A DNA stretch of 33,918 bases from the NCBI GenBank assembly GCA_016283575.1, contig JAEEND010000019.1, positions 1-33,918 on the forward strand, in the 5' to 3' direction. This DNA is from Lachnospiraceae bacterium (GTDB lineage Bacteria; Bacillota; Clostridia; Lachnospirales; Lachnospiraceae). Within the stretch, counting starts at the first letter, position 1. The number at the start of each line of letters is the position of its first letter. Position numbers and translations under genes: made by a program. The notes under the pieces are model-generated. The model was not told the origin of the DNA. It did not search any database and saw only the letters and a list, made by a program, of their open reading frames with translations. This document shows, piece after piece, positions 22,703 through 31,617 of this stretch.

Positions 22703-23995
22703 TCAAGCATTTTTAAAGAGTCTGGGTGTTAAGTTAATATCTTCTGGCGGTATTTCCTCAATTTTTAATAGGTCAAAGAAGTCCGACGGGAACATCATCT
22801 TCGCCATTTTGTATGCTGATAAACCATGCAGTTCTTTCCGAGAGTAGCTGTTTATATGATTCATTAACAAGTTTATGTCCTCTTGATTGAATGGCTCTAA
22901 TGAAGTACCTTTGGGAATTGCATAACGAATCATCTTGTGGTGATTTTCACATGAACCTTTTTCATCAGAGCGGTTCGGTTCGCAAAAAAATACTTTCGTT
23001 CTTATCCCGCCGTGTATAGAACGTTCCATGCCTTTTATGTCTGTAAACTCCTGCCCGTTGTCGGTCAGAATAAGAGGAAACATTTCCTTAAAAAGGTCAG
23101 CTCCTATCATTCTTTCAATCTTATCCAGAGCCGATACTACTTCTTCGCTATTTTGTTCTTCCATTATGATTGCTATTTGTAAAAACGCCTCTTTAAAATG
23201 CAATGTCAGCAAAGTTGCTTTTTCGTCTTTCTTGCCTTCAACACAGTCCATTTCAACAGTATGAACGCTATGCTCTTTAACATAATCAAGATAGTCTGAA
23301 TAAAGGTGGTCTATCTTTGATACATGAATCCGAGCCAAACGGTCTTTATTGCGAGTACGTTTTCTTTCTTTTCGCTTAACAACTTCCCTTAAGTCAATGT
23401 CCCTTGCGTCAAACACATTCCCATGTATCATTCTTCTTAAAGTGGCTTCGCTTACTGGGATTTTGTCGCCATAGGTTTGCTTGATATGATATGGTGAGCA
23501 ACCATTCTTAATCATGGGAGATACAAGTTCATTTATAGTCTTTAATTGCCCCGTTGTAATATCATAGCCCTCTCTACGCTCTTTAAGGTTTTTGTTGTAA
23601 CCAACTTGAGCTTTATGTGAGTTATACAGAACACGACGATGTTGACAATGCCCCCTTTGCGGACAGCCATTACACACATATGGCGGTCTTCTTAACCTTT
23701 TACAGCTAATGGGTACATAATCGGGACAATACTGCTTACACGATACCATTTTGCACTCGGAACACAGAGAATTGCACCCTTCTTTAGGACACCGATTCTT
23801 GTAAGGACAACCTTCTCTATGAATACAATCATTGTTTGCAGACATAGACACAATAACATTTTTCTGGATTTCGCGAGATATGGTAGACGGGGATTTTTCA
23901 AGTTCATTAGCTATTTGCCGAATGGAATTATTTTGTCGTAATCGGTCTTCGATGATGACTCGCTGTTGATAAGTAAGATGTTTGAATTTAGACAT
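22703..23995 (-). CDS. IS30-family transposase
   Basis: DDE transposase that moves its element by cut-and-paste or circle formation. The 430-residue product has an N-terminal helix-turn-helix (residues about 8-45, LTYQQRVIIEDRLRQNNSIR then KSPSTISREI), a cysteine-rich region (57-118) probably binding zinc, and a catalytic core. The DDE triad is D250 (VEMDCVEG), D312 (LTDNGQEF) and E350 (EKGSCENHHKMI), all present. The frame is intact, so it may be active. A minus-strand promoter TTACAT-N17-TATTAC lies upstream. Length suits the longer, zinc-containing IS30 subgroup of Clostridia. Confidence 0.95.
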   Translation of the reverse strand: MSKFKHLTYQQRVIIEDRLRQNNSIRQIANELEKSPSTISREIQKNVIVSMSANNDCIHREGCPYKNRCPKEGCNSLCSECKMVSCKQYCPDYVPISCKRLRRPPYVCNGCPQRGHCQHRRVLYNSHKAQVGYNKNLKERREGYDITTGQLKTINELVSPMIKNGCSPYHIKQTYGDKIPVSEATLRRMIHGNVFDARDIDLREVVKRKERKRTRNKDRLARIHVSKIDHLYSDYLDYVKEHSVHTVEMDCVEGKKDEKATLLTLHFKEAFLQIAIIMEEQNSEEVVSALDKIERMIGADLFKEMFPLILTDNGQEFTDIKGMERSIHGGIRTKVFFCEPNRSDEKGSCENHHKMIRYAIPKGTSLEPFNQEDINLLMNHINSYSRKELHGLSAYKMAKMMFPSDFFDLLKIEEIPPEDINLTPRLFKNA

Positions 23996-24160: not shown

Positions 24161-24227
24161 TTTGTCTTTTTCACCTTAAAGCAGGATATACCAAAGGTCA
24201 AGCGGTTCAATGCGCCTTTAGTTTTAT

Positions 24228-24506
24228 GTAACGATATTTCGTTATTCTTGGGTATATTTCACAAAATTTTTCCTGCTTATCATTTCAACAAGTTCAAAAC
24301 TGTTGGTGTAATTATGTAATGTTGAATGAATAACGTTAATATCACTATATGAATGCTAAAGCCATGATTACACCATTTGTAACGATTTATCGTTACTTGG
24401 TGTAATATTCACCTAACCCGCTATTTATATGTCTCTCAAAGCTGTTATACTTTTGGTGTAATTATCAAACAAACAAAAGGAGATAAAAGTAACGATATTC
24501 AGTTAC
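24228..24506. promoter_or_regulatory. operator-like palindromes and GGTGTAAT repeats upstream of the XRE gene
   Basis: Three 18-bp sites of form GTAACGA-N4-TCGTTAC lie at 24228-24245, 24379-24396 (perfect arms) and 24489-24506 (weaker). The last ends 14 bases before the XRE start codon. GGTGTAAT occurs at 24073, 24305, 24399 and 24455, with an inverted copy at 24367, so the middle palindrome is bracketed by ATTACACCA and TGGTGTAAT. They are probable binding sites for the regulator encoded next door. Confidence 0.65.
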
Positions 24507-24922: not shown

Positions 24923-25021
24923 ATTTGTTAATTCTCTAATTTTTTTTTGAAGAGCTTTTGCCACATCCCCTTGCTTGTTGCAAAGCGAAGCTTGCGAGGT
25001 GGGACGAGTGGACATAAAAAA

Positions 25022-25043
25022 GCCCCGGGCTTTCGCCCGAGGC
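25022..25043 (-). terminator. opp operon terminator
   Basis: GC-rich hairpin, stem 9 bp with one mismatch (GCCTCGGGC with GCCCGGGGC) and a GAAA loop, followed on the minus strand by TTTTTT. It begins 13 bases after the oppA stop codon. Confidence 0.92.
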
Positions 25044-25056
25044 CTCATTATAACCT

Positions 25057-26796
25057 TTATCTGCCAAACTGGCAATCGTTGTTACCGGAATCTGTGATCC
25101 ACATTTCAAGCATGTTGATGGGGTCGTTGAAGTCAGCGATCCAACCTTCACGAGCGAAGTCGAAGTTTCCGGCCTTTCTTTCTTCAAGGAATACGTTCCA
25201 ATCCTGTTCCTGGATGGTGAGTTCAACACCGATTTCGGATAAGTCGGACTGAATTGCTTCTGCAACTGCGATGTGACCTGAAGAAGAGTTGGTGATATAT
25301 TCTACAGCGATAGGTGTTTCGGAAGAAAGCTTACCGTTTTCAAATACATAGCCTGCTGCTTCGAGAAGTTCGATAGCTTCAGCAACTGTTCCTTCGTAAT
25401 CTTCATTGATTGCGTAGGGATTGAAGTAACCTTCTTTTACAGCGTCTGTCTTGAATACGCCGCCGTTACCGTCAGCCATTCCGAGAGGAATGAATGCGTT
25501 AGCTGCAACCTGACCTGTCTGTCCGATGTTTTCGCAGATGTAGTCACGGTCGATGAGGATTGAGAATGCCTTACGGATGCAAGCTGCCTGAGCAGGTGTC
25601 TTGCCTTCGAATAAGGAGCTCTTTGCATTGAATGCAACGTAGTAGGTACCAAGTTCGTCTACGATGTGGAATTCTTTGTTACCTTCTTCAAGAAGAGAAG
25701 CGATTTCGTCTGTAGGTACGGAGTCAGCGAAATCAAGGTCGCCTGCGTTGTATGCAGCAAAAATTGCTGTATCATCGGCAGAAAGCATGAATTCGATCTT
25801 TTCTACGGATACCTTATCAGCATCGTAGTAGTAAGGGTTCTTTTCATAAGTCATGGAAACGTCGTGGTTCCATTCTGTACATACATAAGCACCGTTTGAT
25901 ACGAAGCCTGCATCTGTACACCATGAACCGGGTTCGTCGCCTGTGGAGTTAGCTTCTACATAAGCCTGGTTAACAGGGAAGAATGTAGGGAATGCCATTA
26001 AGTCTTCGATGTATGCGCAGGGAGCAAGAAGAGTGAATACAAGTGTTGTATCATCTGTTGCTTCAACGCTTACGGAACCTTCTTCATATCCTGCAAAACC
26101 GGAGAACATATAACCGTAGTCAGCTGCTGTTTCGGGAGAAGAAGCTCTCTTCCAGGAATATTCGAAGTCCTTAGCTGTAAGGTCAGATCCGTCGGACCAC
26201 TTAAGACCGCTCTTTAATGTAACTGTGTAAGTTAAACCGTCATCTGATACTGTGTAACCTTCAGCAAGTGCAGGCTGTGTCTTACCGTCTTTGTTGTAGG
26301 TGTAAAGACCTGCGAAGCTGTTTGCTGCAAGACATGCACCGTCAACTGAAGAGTTAAGTGCGGGATCAAGGTAATCGGGTTCGGATGCAAGGTTGATACG
26401 AAGAGTATCTGAACCGTTTGCAAGTGTTGCATACATAAAGAACTTTGTAGCGAAAGCGTTACTGAAGATTCCGTCTACGTAATCTTTCTGCATGTATACG
26501 TCATTGTAGTAGTAGAGAGGGATTACGCAGTAGTTGGACATAAGAATGTCTTCTGCCTGATGCATAAGCTCAGTACGCTTAGCGTAATCTGTTTCCATTT
26601 TGATCTGTGTGATCAGGTCGTTGTACTGACCCCATTCGGAAATAGGATCGATGAAGTTTTCGCTTACAAGCTGTTCAGCTGCAGTGCCGTCAACTTCTGC
26701 TCCGCTGTTATCAGCTGCGGGCTTTGTCTCATTTCCACATGCAACGAGGGAAAGAGACATTACAGTAGCAAGTGCTAATGCAATAAGTTTTTTCAT
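25057..26796 (-). CDS. oppA: oligopeptide-binding lipoprotein OppA, apparently circularly permuted
   Basis: Substrate-binding lipoprotein of the peptide ABC transporter (SBP family 5). A signal peptide with lipobox LVAC (Cys20) anchors it. The normal mature N-terminus, TLRINLASEPDYLDPALNSS, appears only at residue 131, and the rest of the fold follows (SDDGLTYTVTLKSGLKWSDG near 180). The protein then stops at DSGNNDCQFGR (residue 579). In usual family members this point is followed by about 70-80 more residues of the type YD.LI, R..LMHQAEDILM, IPLYYY. Exactly such a block (YNDLITQIK, RTELMHQAEDILM, VIPLYYY) is found here at residues 55-123, between the lipobox and the N-lobe. Total length is normal, so nothing is lost, only reordered. 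It has a strong AAGGAGG site and is last in oppBCDFA. Confidence 0.93.
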   Translation of the reverse strand: MKKLIALALATVMSLSLVACGNETKPAADNSGAEVDGTAAEQLVSENFIDPISEWGQYNDLITQIKMETDYAKRTELMHQAEDILMSNYCVIPLYYYNDVYMQKDYVDGIFSNAFATKFFMYATLANGSDTLRINLASEPDYLDPALNSSVDGACLAANSFAGLYTYNKDGKTQPALAEGYTVSDDGLTYTVTLKSGLKWSDGSDLTAKDFEYSWKRASSPETAADYGYMFSGFAGYEEGSVSVEATDDTTLVFTLLAPCAYIEDLMAFPTFFPVNQAYVEANSTGDEPGSWCTDAGFVSNGAYVCTEWNHDVSMTYEKNPYYYDADKVSVEKIEFMLSADDTAIFAAYNAGDLDFADSVPTDEIASLLEEGNKEFHIVDELGTYYVAFNAKSSLFEGKTPAQAACIRKAFSILIDRDYICENIGQTGQVAANAFIPLGMADGNGGVFKTDAVKEGYFNPYAINEDYEGTVAEAIELLEAAGYVFENGKLSSETPIAVEYITNSSSGHIAVAEAIQSDLSEIGVELTIQEQDWNVFLEERKAGNFDFAREGWIADFNDPINMLEMWITDSGNNDCQFGR

Positions 26797-26845: not shown

Positions 26846-27802
26846 CTATCTGTTCCAGCATGCAACAAGATGGTTATTGCCCTTGTCCTTAAGAGTGGGA
26901 CATTCTTTTGCACACTGTTCCGTCGCATACTTACATCTTGTTCTGAAGGGACAGCCTGTAGGCATGTGAAGGGGACTGGGAACGTCGCCTTCAAGAACGA
27001 TACGCTGTCTCTCTCTTGCAATCTTGGGATCCGGAATAGGAACCGCAGAAAGAAGGGACTGGGTGTAAGGGTGTTCGGGATGGTCGGAAAGTTCGTCGGC
27101 ATCCGCGATCTCAACGATCTTTCCTAAATACATAACTGCTATTCTTTTTGAAATATGGCGCACGACCAAAAGGTCATGAGCAATGAAAAGATATGCAACT
27201 CCAAGCTTCTCCTGAAGCTCTTCAAACATGTTGATTACCTGAGCCTGGATGGAAACGTCCAATGCGGAAACCGGTTCATCGCAGACGATGAATTTCGGGT
27301 TGACCGCAAGAGCTCTTGCAATACCGATACGCTGACGCTGTCCGCCGGAAAATTCATGAGCATAACGGGTAGCATGCTCCGCATTAAGTCCTACCGTCTC
27401 CATAAGATCCAGGATACGCTCGCGGCGTTCTTTCTTATTAGAGTAGAGCTTGTGTACATCCAGAGGTTCACCGATGATATCTTCAACCGTCATACGAGGA
27501 TTTAAGGATGAGTAAGGGTCCTGGAACACGATCTGCATCTTCTTTCGCATTTCAGCGATATTCTTTTTGGTAATCTCCTCGCCTTCGAAGAAAACCTGTC
27601 CGGCGGTGGGCTCATATAAATGAAGGATTGAGCGGCCAACGGTTGTCTTACCGCAGCCGGATTCACCTACAAGACCTAAAGTCTCTCCCTTTCCAACGGT
27701 AAAAGAAACATCATCCACAGCCTTTAACTGTAACGTCTTAAAGCCTGCTCTTACGGGGAAATACTGCTTAAGGTTTTTTACTTCAATAAGATTCTCGCTC
27801 AT
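26846..27802 (-). CDS. oppF: oligopeptide ABC transporter ATP-binding protein OppF
   Basis: One of two ATPases of the peptide importer. The 318-residue product has Walker A GESGCGKT (about residues 44-51), Q-loop [12 protein letters not shown], signature [15 protein letters not shown], Walker [15 protein letters not shown] and switch FIAHDLLVV. The C-terminal oligopeptide extension holds the cysteine set CPFRTRC...C...C that in related proteins can bind an iron-sulfur cluster. Its ATG follows the oppD stop directly (TAAATG). Together with OppD it forms the motor under OppB and OppC. Confidence 0.96.
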
Positions 27803-28810
27803 TTACGCTTCCCCCTTTCCTTCGTCCAATGCTTCTTTTATATTCATCCAGCAGGCAGCCTTGTGATTTTCATTGATCCAAAGCTCTTCCGGCTGCTCAG
27901 TTAAGCAAACCTTTAATGCTGCGTCGCATCTTGTACAGAACGCACATCCTGCAGGAAGATTAAGCATATTGATGGGGGTACCGGCTATGGGTACGAGTTT
28001 CTTCTTCATATTACTAATGTTAGGTATGGAGCGAAGAAGTCCTTTGGTGTATTCGTGCTTGGGATTGTAGAATATTTCATCTGCAGTTCCGCGTTCACAT
28101 ATACGACCGCCATACATAACGATGATGTTGTCACACATATCGGCGATCACGCCAAGGTCATGAGTTACAAGGATAACTGACATGCCCATTTTCTTTTGCA
28201 GCTTCTGGATCTCTTCAAGGATCTGAGCCTGAATGGTAACATCCAATGCCGTGGTAGGTTCGTCGGCAATAAGAATATCGGGTTCGCATGCAAGAGCCAT
28301 GGCGATCATAACTCTCTGACGCATACCGCCTGATAATTCAAAGGGATACTGCTTGAATCTTCGCTCGGGCTCGTTGATACCAACAAGCTCCAGCATTTCG
28401 ATGGCACGTTCTTTTATCTCTTTGCCCTTCTTATCGGTATGAAGGCGAATTGCTTCGCTTATCTGGTTACCGATGGTAAATACGGGATTTAAACTGGTCA
28501 TGGGATCCTGGAAGATTATGGAGCAGCATTTTCCGCGGAAATCACGCATTTTATGCTCGTTCCATTTTGTGATATCTTCGCCTTTATAAAGGACCTGACC
28601 TCCGGAAATATTTCCGTTGTCTGCTAAAATCTGCATTATGGAGTAGGCGGATACGGATTTACCGGAGCCCGACTCACCAACTATTCCGAGGATCTCTCCT
28701 CTTTTAAGATCATATGACACGCCATTTACGGCCTGTACTGTACCTGCGTCGGTCTTAAAGCTTGTGTGTAAGTCCCGAACGCTTAATAAAACTTCATTTT
28801 CTTCATTCAT
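27803..28810 (-). CDS. oppD: oligopeptide ABC transporter ATP-binding protein OppD
   Basis: The second ATPase of the importer. With the start at 28810 ([18 protein letters not shown]) it has 335 residues. Walker A is GESGSGKS at residues 45-52, with signature [15 protein letters not shown], Walker [15 protein letters not shown], switch LVTHDLGV and the C-terminal cysteine motif CAFCTRC...C...C. GAGGTAG lies before this start and the oppC stop is only 4 bases away. An in-frame ATG at 28855 would add 15 residues that lie inside oppC and is unlikely. Confidence 0.96.
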
Positions 28811-28814
28811 AGGA

Positions 28815-29891
28815 CTACCTCGATAATTTAGGATCAAACGCATCTCTGAGTCCATCGCCGATGAGGTTTAAGCTGAGAACCACAAGGCAGATGGCAACTG
28901 CGGGAAATACAAGTTTATAGGGATAACTCTGCAAGCCTTCTCTTGCTGCATTGGCAAGGGAACCGAGGGAGGGCATGGGAGCCGAAACACCTAAGCCTAC
29001 AAAGCTCAAATAACTTTCCGTAAATATTGCAGAAGGGATCTGCAATGCGGTGGAAATAATGATAACTGACAAGCAGTTAGGTAAAATATGCTTTCTTATG
29101 ATCCGTCCGGGCTTGGCTCCGATGGATTTTGCTGCCAGCACATATTCATTTTCCTTAATAGAAAGAATCTGTGCTCTTATAAGTCTCGCCATTCCTACCC
29201 AGTAGAGCACACCAAACACTATAAACATGGAAATCATGTTGGCGCCTATGGAAGCTAGGAAGGATCCACCTTTAAATTTAAGTACGGAACCGAGTACTAC
29301 GGACAAAAGAATGATGACCAGCATGTCGGGAAGGGAATAGATCATATCCACTATTCTCATCATGATAAGGTCCGTTCTTCCGCCTGCGTATCCGGAGATA
29401 CTTCCGTAGATAAGTCCGATGATAAGTACGATGATACTTGCAAAGAAGCCAACCACAAGAGAAACTCTTGTACCGTACACAACACGGATAAAGTAGTCAC
29501 GGCACTGTTCGTCGGTACCGAAGATGTGGGGAAATCTGAAGTTACCCGCATCGATGTATTCCTGTTCAAGAACACTGTAGGTGAAGGGAGCAAGGTTCTT
29601 GGCGCCTTTATCTCTCACACCGTTTACTTTAAGGATCTCATCGTAGCTGTAGGGTACAACCATGGGAGCTACGATTATTATTACTAAAATTATCGCAAGA
29701 ACGATAAGACTCGCCATTGCCAGGCGGTTCTTTCTGAGGCGTCTCAGGCCATCCTTTAAGAAGGTGGTGCTTTCGCTCATTACGTCCTGCTGTTTCTTTT
29801 CTTCTTCAGTTGCCTTTTCAAATTTGGAAAGGTCAAGCTGCATGCTTAACACCTGCTTTTTAGGTGTCTTATTTACATCATATTCACTCAC
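28815..29891 (-). CDS. oppC: oligopeptide ABC transporter permease OppC
   Basis: Membrane subunit of the peptide channel. The 358-residue product has a polar N-terminus of about 55 residues, then a first transmembrane helix (LAMASLIVLAIILVIIIVAP), a large external loop (HIFGTDEQCRDYFIRVVYGT) and five further helices. The coupling loop EYVLAAKSIGAKPGRIIRKH docks to the ATPases. The N-terminal extension is longer than in E. coli OppC. It follows oppB by 12 bases and is coupled to oppD. Confidence 0.96.
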   Translation of the reverse strand: MSEYDVNKTPKKQVLSMQLDLSKFEKATEEEKKQQDVMSESTTFLKDGLRRLRKNRLAMASLIVLAIILVIIIVAPMVVPYSYDEILKVNGVRDKGAKNLAPFTYSVLEQEYIDAGNFRFPHIFGTDEQCRDYFIRVVYGTRVSLVVGFFASIIVLIIGLIYGSISGYAGGRTDLIMMRIVDMIYSLPDMLVIILLSVVLGSVLKFKGGSFLASIGANMISMFIVFGVLYWVGMARLIRAQILSIKENEYVLAAKSIGAKPGRIIRKHILPNCLSVIIISTALQIPSAIFTESYLSFVGLGVSAPMPSLGSLANAAREGLQSYPYKLVFPAVAICLVVLSLNLIGDGLRDAFDPKLSR

Positions 29892-29903: not shown

Positions 29904-30815
29904 CTACTCGTACTTAATTCTGGGATCAACGGCTTTATAAAGTAAGTCGCAGATAACGTTGGCAACTACCATGAGGGAAGCCAAGAAAATTGTGGTAGCC
30001 ATGATCATGGTGTAGTCACGGTTTGTAATGGCATTTACGAATTTGGAGCCGATGCCGCCTACGGTAAATACGGTTTCAACAACCATGGAACCTGTAATAA
30101 TGTATGCGATTTCGGGACCGGCATAGGTAATTACGGGAAGCAATGAATTCCTGAGGGCATGCTTGAAGATGATGATCCATCTTGATACACCCTTTGCACG
30201 CGCAGTTCTGATGTAATCCTGGCTAAGCGCATCAAGCATGCTGGTCTTTGCAAGTCTTGTGGTGTAGGCCATGGGATACATGGCAAGCGAAATGACCGGG
30301 AGCACATAGTTGGTCTCCGTTGCACTCCACACAGGGAACCATCCGAGCTTGATACAGAAGATCAAAAGCAAGAACGTAGCCAGTACAAATGAGGGTACCG
30401 CAGTGAACAATGTTGATATAAAGATGATAATTCTATCGGGAAGTTTATTTCTCATAAGAGCCGCAACACTGCCAAAGATTGTTCCTGCAACCAAAGCAAT
30501 TATTACAGCAGTAAGACCTAACCTTGCTGATATCGGGAAAGATTCTCCGATGATTTCTTTGATATCTCTTCCGGTTTTAAGACTTACACCAAAATCACCT
30601 TTTAACAGATTCTTCATATACAATCCAAACTGAACTATTATGGGCTTGTCGAGATTGTATCTCTCGTTTAATGCCTGAATAGTCGCCTTGCTTAGAGCCT
30701 TTTCTGAATTGAAAGGGCCTCCGGGGATTGCATTCATTAAAAAGAATGTTAACAGGCAGATCAGGAAAACAGTCAAAATAGCCAGACCGATTCGTTTTAA
30801 AATATAACGCGCCAT
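29904..30815 (-). CDS. oppB: oligopeptide ABC transporter permease OppB
   Basis: The first membrane subunit and first gene of the operon. The 303-residue product starts MARYILKRIGLAILTVFLIC with the first helix. It has the family phrase IPGGPFNSEK, the coupling loop DYIRTARAKGVSRWIIIFKH and the C-terminal phrase AVDPRIKYE. Six transmembrane segments are expected. GGAGAGAAGGAA precedes the ATG. It has a leader of about 100 bases with a small hairpin (AAAGCGA/TCGCTTT) and the promoter at 30921-30949. Confidence 0.97.
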   Translation of the reverse strand: MARYILKRIGLAILTVFLICLLTFFLMNAIPGGPFNSEKALSKATIQALNERYNLDKPIIVQFGLYMKNLLKGDFGVSLKTGRDIKEIIGESFPISARLGLTAVIIALVAGTIFGSVAALMRNKLPDRIIIFISTLFTAVPSFVLATFLLLIFCIKLGWFPVWSATETNYVLPVISLAMYPMAYTTRLAKTSMLDALSQDYIRTARAKGVSRWIIIFKHALRNSLLPVITYAGPEIAYIITGSMVVETVFTVGGIGSKFVNAITNRDYTMIMATTIFLASLMVVANVICDLLYKAVDPRIKYE

Positions 30816-30920: not shown

Positions 30921-30949
30921 ATAATATCTGTCTCAAATGCGGATGTCAA
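30921..30949 (-). promoter_or_regulatory. promoter of oppBCDFA
   Basis: On the minus strand TTGACA (30944-30949), exactly 17 bases, TATTAT (30921-30926). Near-consensus vegetative promoter. I see no operator palindrome beside it. The inverted dyad array begins about 120 bases upstream. Confidence 0.92.
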
Positions 30950-31072
30950 GGGTGTTTTGCAAATTTTGTCCGTTCTGCGCAAACATATTTCTTTTCACGG
31001 TGTACATTTGTGGAATTGTAATGTTTACTAAATCTCTTGTGGTGGGTTGCTGTGCTGGTGGGTTGTCCTATC

Positions 31073-31617
31073 GTATCCCAGTATGTTTTTTACAGGTTAA
31101 TTGGGATAGGTTTAAAACACTTCCGCCCTTTAGTTTTGCTTGTCGTATCCCAATATGGAAATTTCCATCTAACTGGGATAGTTTTTCACTTCCTATACCC
31201 TTTCATATTGTATATCGTATCCCAATACGGAAGCTTCCACCTAAATGGGATAGTTTATCACTTCTTATACCCTTTCATATTGTATATCGTATCCCAATAC
31301 GGAAGCTTCCATCTAAACTGGGATAGTTTATCACTGTTCTCACCCCTTCACGTTGTCTCACGTATCCCAATACGGAAATTTCCATCTAAACTGGGATAGT
31401 TTTTCACAGCTAATACCCCTTCACCTTATCTCACGTATCCCAATACAGAAGCTTCCATCTAAACTGGGATAATTTTTCACAGCTAATACCCCTTCACCTT
31501 GTCTCATGTATCCCAATACGGAAGCTTCCATCTAAACTGGGATAGTTTTTCACAGCTAATACCCCTTCACCTTGTCTCACCTATCCCAGCGGGCCACACA
31601 AAATGATATAGGGATAG
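31073..31617. repeat. left array: eight 72-73 bp units built on a 37-38 bp dyad
   Basis: Units start at 31073, 31145, 31217, 31289, 31362, 31435, 31508 and 31581. Each has an outer TATCCCA...TGGGATA inverted pair and, in six of them, an inner palindrome GGAAGCTTCC or GGAAATTTCC (one unit has a single change, AGAAGCTTCC). The switch between GC and AT at its centre keeps the symmetry. A linker of about 35 bp (CACAGCTAATACCCCTTCAC and relatives) is also conserved, with variants in the first four units. The first and last units are degenerate. The array lies between the opp promoter and the methyltransferase promoter. Linkers are conserved, not unique, so it is not a CRISPR. Confidence 0.95.

Follow-up and report, generated by a model that had tools for sequence, protein, structure and literature searches.

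The opp operon and the parts of its oppA gene

The window, that is the whole stretch of 33,918 nt analysed here, is contig JAEEND010000019.1 of a Lachnospiraceae bacterium (assembly GCA_016283575.1). An open reading frame on its minus strand (25057-26796) encodes an OppA-type lipoprotein of 579 residues, whose parts are collected in Table 1. Upstream on the same strand oppB, oppC, oppD and oppF are all present, in agreement with the first-pass annotation, which had placed the gene inside a complete opp operon; the order oppBCDF-A was found in loci with permuted and with canonical OppA. A Shine-Dalgarno-like site, read by eye, lies immediately 5′ of oppA. The protein scored 283.8 bits against PF00496 over residues 173-573 (gathering cut-off 32.4) and 224.9 bits against the NCBIfam OppA equivalog, below the cut-off of 947.

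Table 1. Parts of the oppA gene and neighbouring features of the opp operon in the window
Feature	Coordinates	Strand	Basis
Intrinsic-terminator-like GC hairpin and T-run directly after the oppA stop	25016..25046	-	read by eye
SBP family 5 core, residues 130-579, new C-terminus SGNNDCQFGR	25060..26409	-	PF00496, phmmer, HMM
New joint of old C-terminus and old N-terminus, residues 125-129 (LANGS)	26410..26424	-	sequence, phmmer
Relocated C-terminal block, residues 55-124, with two helices, one long strand and the final short strands	26425..26634	-	phmmer, HMM, pLDDT
Flexible linker, residues 21-54	26635..26736	-	model pLDDT, mean 37 (residues 21-30) and 65 (residues 31-40)
Signal peptide with lipobox LVAC (residues 17-20); Cys20 predicted lipid attachment	26737..26796	-	sequence
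oppF (ATPase)	26846..27802	-	top NCBIfam OppF, 404.1 bits, below equivalog cut-off 540
oppD (ATPase)	27803..28855	-	top NCBIfam OppD, 379.5 bits, below cut-off 575
oppC (permease)	28815..29891	-	top NCBIfam Opp3C, 304.7 bits, below cut-off 450
oppB (permease)	29904..30815	-	top NCBIfam Opp3B, 320 bits, below cut-off 480

Between a ribosomal protein cluster and the opp operon lies an IS30-family transposase gene (22703-23995; NF033563, 103.6 bits, cut-off 80), followed by short repeats such as TGTAACGATATTTCGTTA at 24227-24505. On the other side, upstream of the operon, plus-strand ORFs at 30937-31400 carry the recurring motifs IVSQYGSFHLN and IPFHIVYRIPIRKLP and probably represent a short tandem repeat array.

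Segment order, predicted fold and membrane anchor

The canonical mature start, TLRINLASEPDYLDP, stands in the window OppA only after the block and the five-residue joint. We observed the same displacement by phmmer against PDB sequences: residues 127-575 matched positions 17-450 of the Bacillus subtilis OppA chain and residues 57-120 positions 456-519, and similarly residues 127-573 and 57-112 matched DppE chain positions 19-444 and 452-507. Searched alone (86 aa), the block recovered nine distinct PDB sequences at E <= 0.1 (DppE 8.8e-11, B. subtilis OppA 4.4e-7), with the best stretch near the chain end in each. An HMM of the canonical order, built from 39 canonical relatives (543 positions), split the native chain into three domains in the wrong order (18.3, 80.7 and 625.3 bits; whole sequence 714.0). 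Moving residues 43-126 to the C-terminus gave a single domain covering positions 1-541 of 543 with 758.4 bits. The rotated query outscored all 20 random rotations, the next best being those cut close to the same joint. The same HMM found swapped segments in 111/111 permuted rows and colinear ones in the 39/39 canonical rows from which it had been made.

Thus, by phmmer, block-alone search and HMM rotation, the match greatly exceeds what chance would give, and both joints fall at segment borders where the first-pass annotation had placed them. This confirmed its reading of a circularly permuted OppA: the C-terminal block (residues ~55-124) sits between the signal and linker and the normal N-terminus, and rotation restores one continuous alignment. 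The family 5 sequence is complete once order is ignored, in a segment order that is not the canonical one. A practical consequence is that models assuming the canonical order recover only part of such a protein in one stretch.

The predicted structure of the window OppA had a pLDDT of 89.3 and a pTM of 0.86. Structure prediction had been proposed as a check; residues 51-130, which span the relocated block, reached pLDDT 92-96, with residues 14-33 below 50 and the last nine at ~52. The closest PDB folds found by Foldseek were OppA, MppA and DppE, not the cluster B (Type I) sugar-binding fold; the best was B. subtilis OppA 8arn (TM 0.74 by target, 471 columns, in a chain-order alignment that is blind to the place of the block). 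A viral fold search with the model gave no match at E <= 0.001. On the strength of the model, the permuted chain would fold much as the canonical one does.

The position of the break relative to the lobes was examined with MppA, of which domain 1a comprises residues 23-65, 197-285 and 509-540, domain 1b residues 66-196, domain 2 residues 288-506 and the hinge residues 286-287 and 507-508 (PMC6022919). By phmmer alignments, with chain positions assumed to be counted from the mature start, the query end at residue 579 corresponds to about MppA residue 460-470, inside domain 2 and ~40 residues ahead of the second hinge crossing. On these boundaries, both canonical ends would lie in domain 1a and both permuted ends in domain 2, the number of lobe crossings remaining two. 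The first-pass annotation had stated that both chain ends lie in one lobe; this holds for the canonical ends, and the permuted ends appear to share the other lobe. Since the break loop belongs to lobe 2 by alignment, the membrane anchor of the permuted OppA would shift from lobe 1 to lobe 2.

The mature chain would accordingly begin with a lipid-anchored Cys followed by a flexible linker, enter lobe 2 via the old C-terminal helices, cross the hinge to lobe 1 and reach the old N-terminus by way of a tight joint some five residues long; it would then pass through lobe 1, return to lobe 2 and end with QFGR close to the entry point. The fold, both hinge crossings and the peptide-anchoring Trp-x-x-Asp motif would be retained. 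Compared with OppA and DppE (SBP family 5, cluster C, PF00496), the window protein shares the full-length sequence irrespective of order, the predicted fold, Trp-x-x-Asp, the operon and the size, but its first part corresponds to their last ~70 residues and its anchor probably sits on lobe 2.

Distribution and conservation of the permuted order

Related genomes were searched for the same order, as had been suggested, by scanning genome contigs with six peptides of the window OppA and retaining the best 80 of 245 loci. The block preceded the core in 80/80 of these; because the queries came from the window OppA and only the best 80 of 245 loci were retained, this is not a population frequency. 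Among the best 80 of 245, L081 is truncated where its contig stops and L083 is divided over more than one frame. By record title, ten of the 80 belong to Spirochaetes and the others to Clostridia or further Bacillota, most of them being metagenome genomes from gut or rumen. The permuted order also occurs in strain records not marked as MAG (Treponema bryantii XBD1002, Roseburia sp. 1XD42-69) and in the one-contig genomes G218 and G730. Such conservation among relatives points to a family of gut Clostridia and Spirochaetes, not a single-genome oddity.

Wider genome searches scored the three best candidates per genome; one of them gave 30 places used as loci, and further canonical rows were picked by hand. 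Over all loci we counted 176 OppA-like ORFs, of which 124 were block-first, 49 block-last and three fragments, some loci holding the same gene twice. The block on both sides of the core, an arrangement that the first-pass annotation had raised against its own reading, was found in 0/176 ORFs, and with it no block-core-block intermediate. The distinct genes number 111 permuted and 39 canonical. The permuted OppA, thought very unusual in that annotation, is thus a large family.

In the window's own genus, 0/17 other genomes (62-99% complete) had a match near the strength of the window OppA: the best was a canonical gene with 43% identity in G007, and the next had E 1.3e-18. The opp operon is therefore patchy there, and the window may possibly have acquired it by transfer.

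We then compared selection on the two parts (Nei-Gojobori). In nine permuted-permuted pairs, dN/dS of block and core was 0.05-0.14 in 15 of 18 values, dS being saturated in the other three. Core dN/dS of mixed pairs was 0.10 (L064/L138) and 0.23 (L184/L190), and the block of the canonical pair L190/L191 gave 0.50 on few changes. These ratios indicate purifying selection on the block as well as on the core.

A lipobox was found by a simple pattern, used in place of a signal-peptide predictor, in 39/39 canonical and 91/111 permuted genes; the pattern misses likely lipoboxes in L019, L037 and L071. The 20/111 pattern-negative permuted OppA (at least three of them pattern misses; relatedness not factored in) include L021, L023, L031, L034, L038, L075, L077, L080, L127, L130, L132, L183 and L192, and many seem to have signals of the signal-peptidase-I type. 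In the 78/111 permuted rows with a Cys found by pattern, its distance to the block had a median of 35 residues and ranged from 9 to 68. In L063 (4800-6000), very long low-complexity repeats of EAAEETAEAAGEAVEEA type lie 5′ of the block of a permuted OppA; its signal peptide is in another frame, which suggests a frameshift or sequence error inside the repeats.

Concerning function, W552 and D555 were invariant in 50 aligned rows. D555 aligned by phmmer with chain position 419 of Escherichia coli OppA, Asp419 being presumably the ligand-anchoring Asp. In AliD the peptide amino end meets D501 with W498 (PMC11192437), and in DppA, R383 binds the carboxyl group of the dipeptide and D436 its amino group (PMC12136057). 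By analogy, W552 and D555 are probably equivalent to AliD W498 and D501, and D555 to DppA D436. Operon, selection, lipobox and the conserved W552/D555 together support an ordinary peptide receptor, and this is most likely how the permuted OppA works; it would hand peptides to the OppBCDF of its own operon.

Interleaving of the two orders and its explanation

The main result, not foreseen by the first-pass annotation, is repeated switching between the two orders. In a core tree made by a quick method (92 rows) the order has to change seven times, five changes being forced by starred branches; in a block tree (92 rows, 77 columns) it has to change eight times, with six of these changes forced. 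A more careful tree of core and block together (the OppA tree, 71 rows) required a minimum of eight changes, with five forced by starred branches. None of its 200 bootstrap trees (0%) had a single origin, and holding the permuted rows as one clade was 513 lnL worse (p-AU 0.003). The 71 rows were drawn from the 150 distinct genes: 44/111 permuted ones with less than 78% mutual identity, and 27/39 canonical ones whose identity was 45% or more to some permuted row but below 95% to any kept row.

Similarly, interleaving was observed in a tree of the partners that contains no part of OppA. This OppFDCB tree (65 rows, 1299 columns, 15 rows less than half filled) required seven changes, 7/7 forced by starred branches; a single origin was again seen in 0% of 200, and the one-clade tree was 816 lnL worse (p-AU 1.6e-8). 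Of the 71 OppA rows, four had no usable oppF, and L182 and L145 were removed for long branches and foreign oppF; with these two kept, the changes numbered eight. A single permuted clade is thus rejected by the OppA tree and, separately, by the partner tree.

Mixed groups common to both trees are permuted L184 (G730, 1 contig) with canonical L190 (G663, 2 contigs), permuted L064 (Butyrivibrio MAG) with canonical L138 (G170, 180 contigs; a genus search around G170 covered one genome), and a third clade of 11 canonical rows (10 in the OppFDCB tree) with the two permuted rows L120 and L122. The closest mixed pair, L064/L138, has 83% residue identity in the core and 77% in the block. At the DNA level the two mixed pairs (L184/L190 being held by loci L195/L196) were 79% and 76% identical in the collinear oppF, 80% and 72% in the core, and 74% and 77% in the block, located at the opposite end. 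The trees conflict in places: the core tree joins permuted L134 to three canonical rows, the OppFDCB tree puts it beside permuted L049, and the L184/L190 pair is placed differently in the OppA and OppFDCB trees. A transfer replacing oppA alone does not account for the mixed groups, since OppA and partner trees agree there.

The direction of the changes was examined on both trees. On the OppA tree, gains only required 10 gains with lnL -28.8, against -27.3 with reversions, so that the two models fit almost equally well; on the OppFDCB tree an irreversible model required 13 gains and fitted clearly worse, with lnL -36.9 against -26.8. Taken together, the likelihoods imply at least one gain and, judging from these sequence-based trees, reversions to the canonical order probably occurred.

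The ends of the permuted proteins are very uniform. Trimmed block and core are 1-5 residues apart in the 111 permuted rows; the C-terminus is the same G[RK] in 94 of the 108 proteins (of 111) with the end motif found, and the remaining 14 extend 2-13 residues beyond it. Most of the distant canonical genes are insert-free at the break (GNNDAQYSNPEYD type), and an insert between the QFGK-like motif and W..YD is present in the nearest outgroup (L148, L150, L154) and in canonical genes of the mixed clades, where it is of similar length. Two tandem permuted oppA copies stand behind one oppBCDF in L062 (3926-7599), their cores having 48% and 61% identity to that of the window OppA, and L059 has an additional oppA copy with a large internal deletion; the raw events for duplication-deletion thus exist at this locus. 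Repeats at the joints beyond controls were not found in 150 genes (mean longest exact match 6.9, 6.5 and 6.7 nt at three joints versus 6.7 nt).

We favour, with a probability of about 0.83, a working OppA-type peptide-binding lipoprotein that is permuted and whose order has switched several times within its operon by duplication-deletion. The permuted order would have arisen in an opp lineage of gut bacteria, at a loop with an insert already in it; this insert may have made the break site permissive. Later switches would have taken place within the operon, probably in both directions, through tandem duplication and deletion. The broader formulation, that OppA of gut Clostridia and Spirochaetes underwent recurrent and reversible permutation (at least seven moves in one operon and at one loop, the anchor lobe changing and function apparently kept), we regard as fairly likely.

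The most serious competitor is one ancient permutation followed by exchange of core and block through homologous recombination or gene conversion, with the joints kept and the trees merely looking mixed. The uniform ends and junction inserts are its best argument, as repeated independent events alone would not predict such uniformity. We nevertheless consider it unlikely: the main mixed clades (L138 beside L064; L120 and L122 within canonical rows) recur in the core, block and partner trees, so recombination would need to have replaced both core and block, from the same donor each time and in agreement with the partners. Moreover, among 10 genomes with at least two matches (E <= 1e-60; with three best candidates scored in each genome, a second copy may go undetected), a permuted gene was present in G237 only, beside a distant canonical one (36%). 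A programmed or phase-variable DNA switch within one strain would also explain why relatives differ in order at the same break, but it is very improbable given the joints without shared sequence, an opp operon without a recombinase gene in the window, and the core DNA of even the closest mixed pair being just 80% identical.

Decay of a gene without function is equally improbable. An in-frame TAG does occur in the core of the permuted oppA of G303 (L165:7150-7152, on a 3.5 Mb contig; also L139), which may reflect error, recoding or decay, and the extra copy of L059 is broken and L083 split between frames. The low dN/dS of block and core where measurable, and in the window the open frame, RBS-like site, terminator-like hairpin and complete operon, speak for a maintained gene. 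Least probable of all is an assembly chimera of tandem oppA copies, an alternative already named in the first-pass annotation; some relatives do carry tandem copies (L062, L059), yet the order recurs throughout the best 80 of 245 loci, strain records included, as well as in one-contig genomes, which removes its basis, and a collapsed tandem pair alone does not yield signal-block-core.

Most known natural circular permutations are single, ancient events that separate distant relatives. Saposin/swaposin, DNA methyltransferases and transhydrogenases are other examples; permutation by duplication is a standard model, and the domain orders of transhydrogenases are reported to have arisen independently (PMC3320104). 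Compared with these cases, OppA keeps both orders among close orthologues of one operon, is cut within one of the lobes of a single-chain fold, and has orders that appear to interconvert. The nearest precedent found is TpMglB-2 (Tp0684) of Treponema pallidum, a permuted lipoprotein that binds glucose and has been crystallised. Its relatives occur in treponemes and gut Gram-positives; 'Type Ic / Cluster Bc' was proposed for it, and anchoring was discussed as a possible reason for the permutation (PMC4990184). Both are naturally permuted solute-binding lipoproteins of treponemes and gut Gram-positives, but TpMglB-2 belongs to the cluster B sugar class, has its N-terminal strands near the C-end, a break in the N lobe and a fourth hinge crossing, and within-family switching is absent from its description in the excerpted text (PMC4990184); peptide-binding SBPs are cluster C (PMC12136057). 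That permuted receptors of two classes occur in the same two bacterial groups is striking. In open-access literature, with subscription journals mostly outside the search, none of the matches listed concerned an OppA or other family 5 protein in permuted order.

Orthologous pairs in both orders, with up to 83% core identity and the same partners, make origin, intermediates and effects on folding and function directly testable; they also test whether the anchor-bearing lobe matters to a binding-protein-dependent importer. The apparent switching suggests that evolution can rewire the path of a chain through the same structure, and probably undo this again. Finally, a very divergent permuted OppA was observed in G358 (L147; 39% identical across the full query, on a long branch, adjoining an oppF-like gene), and the permuted group may reach further back in time, or extend more widely, than this sample shows.
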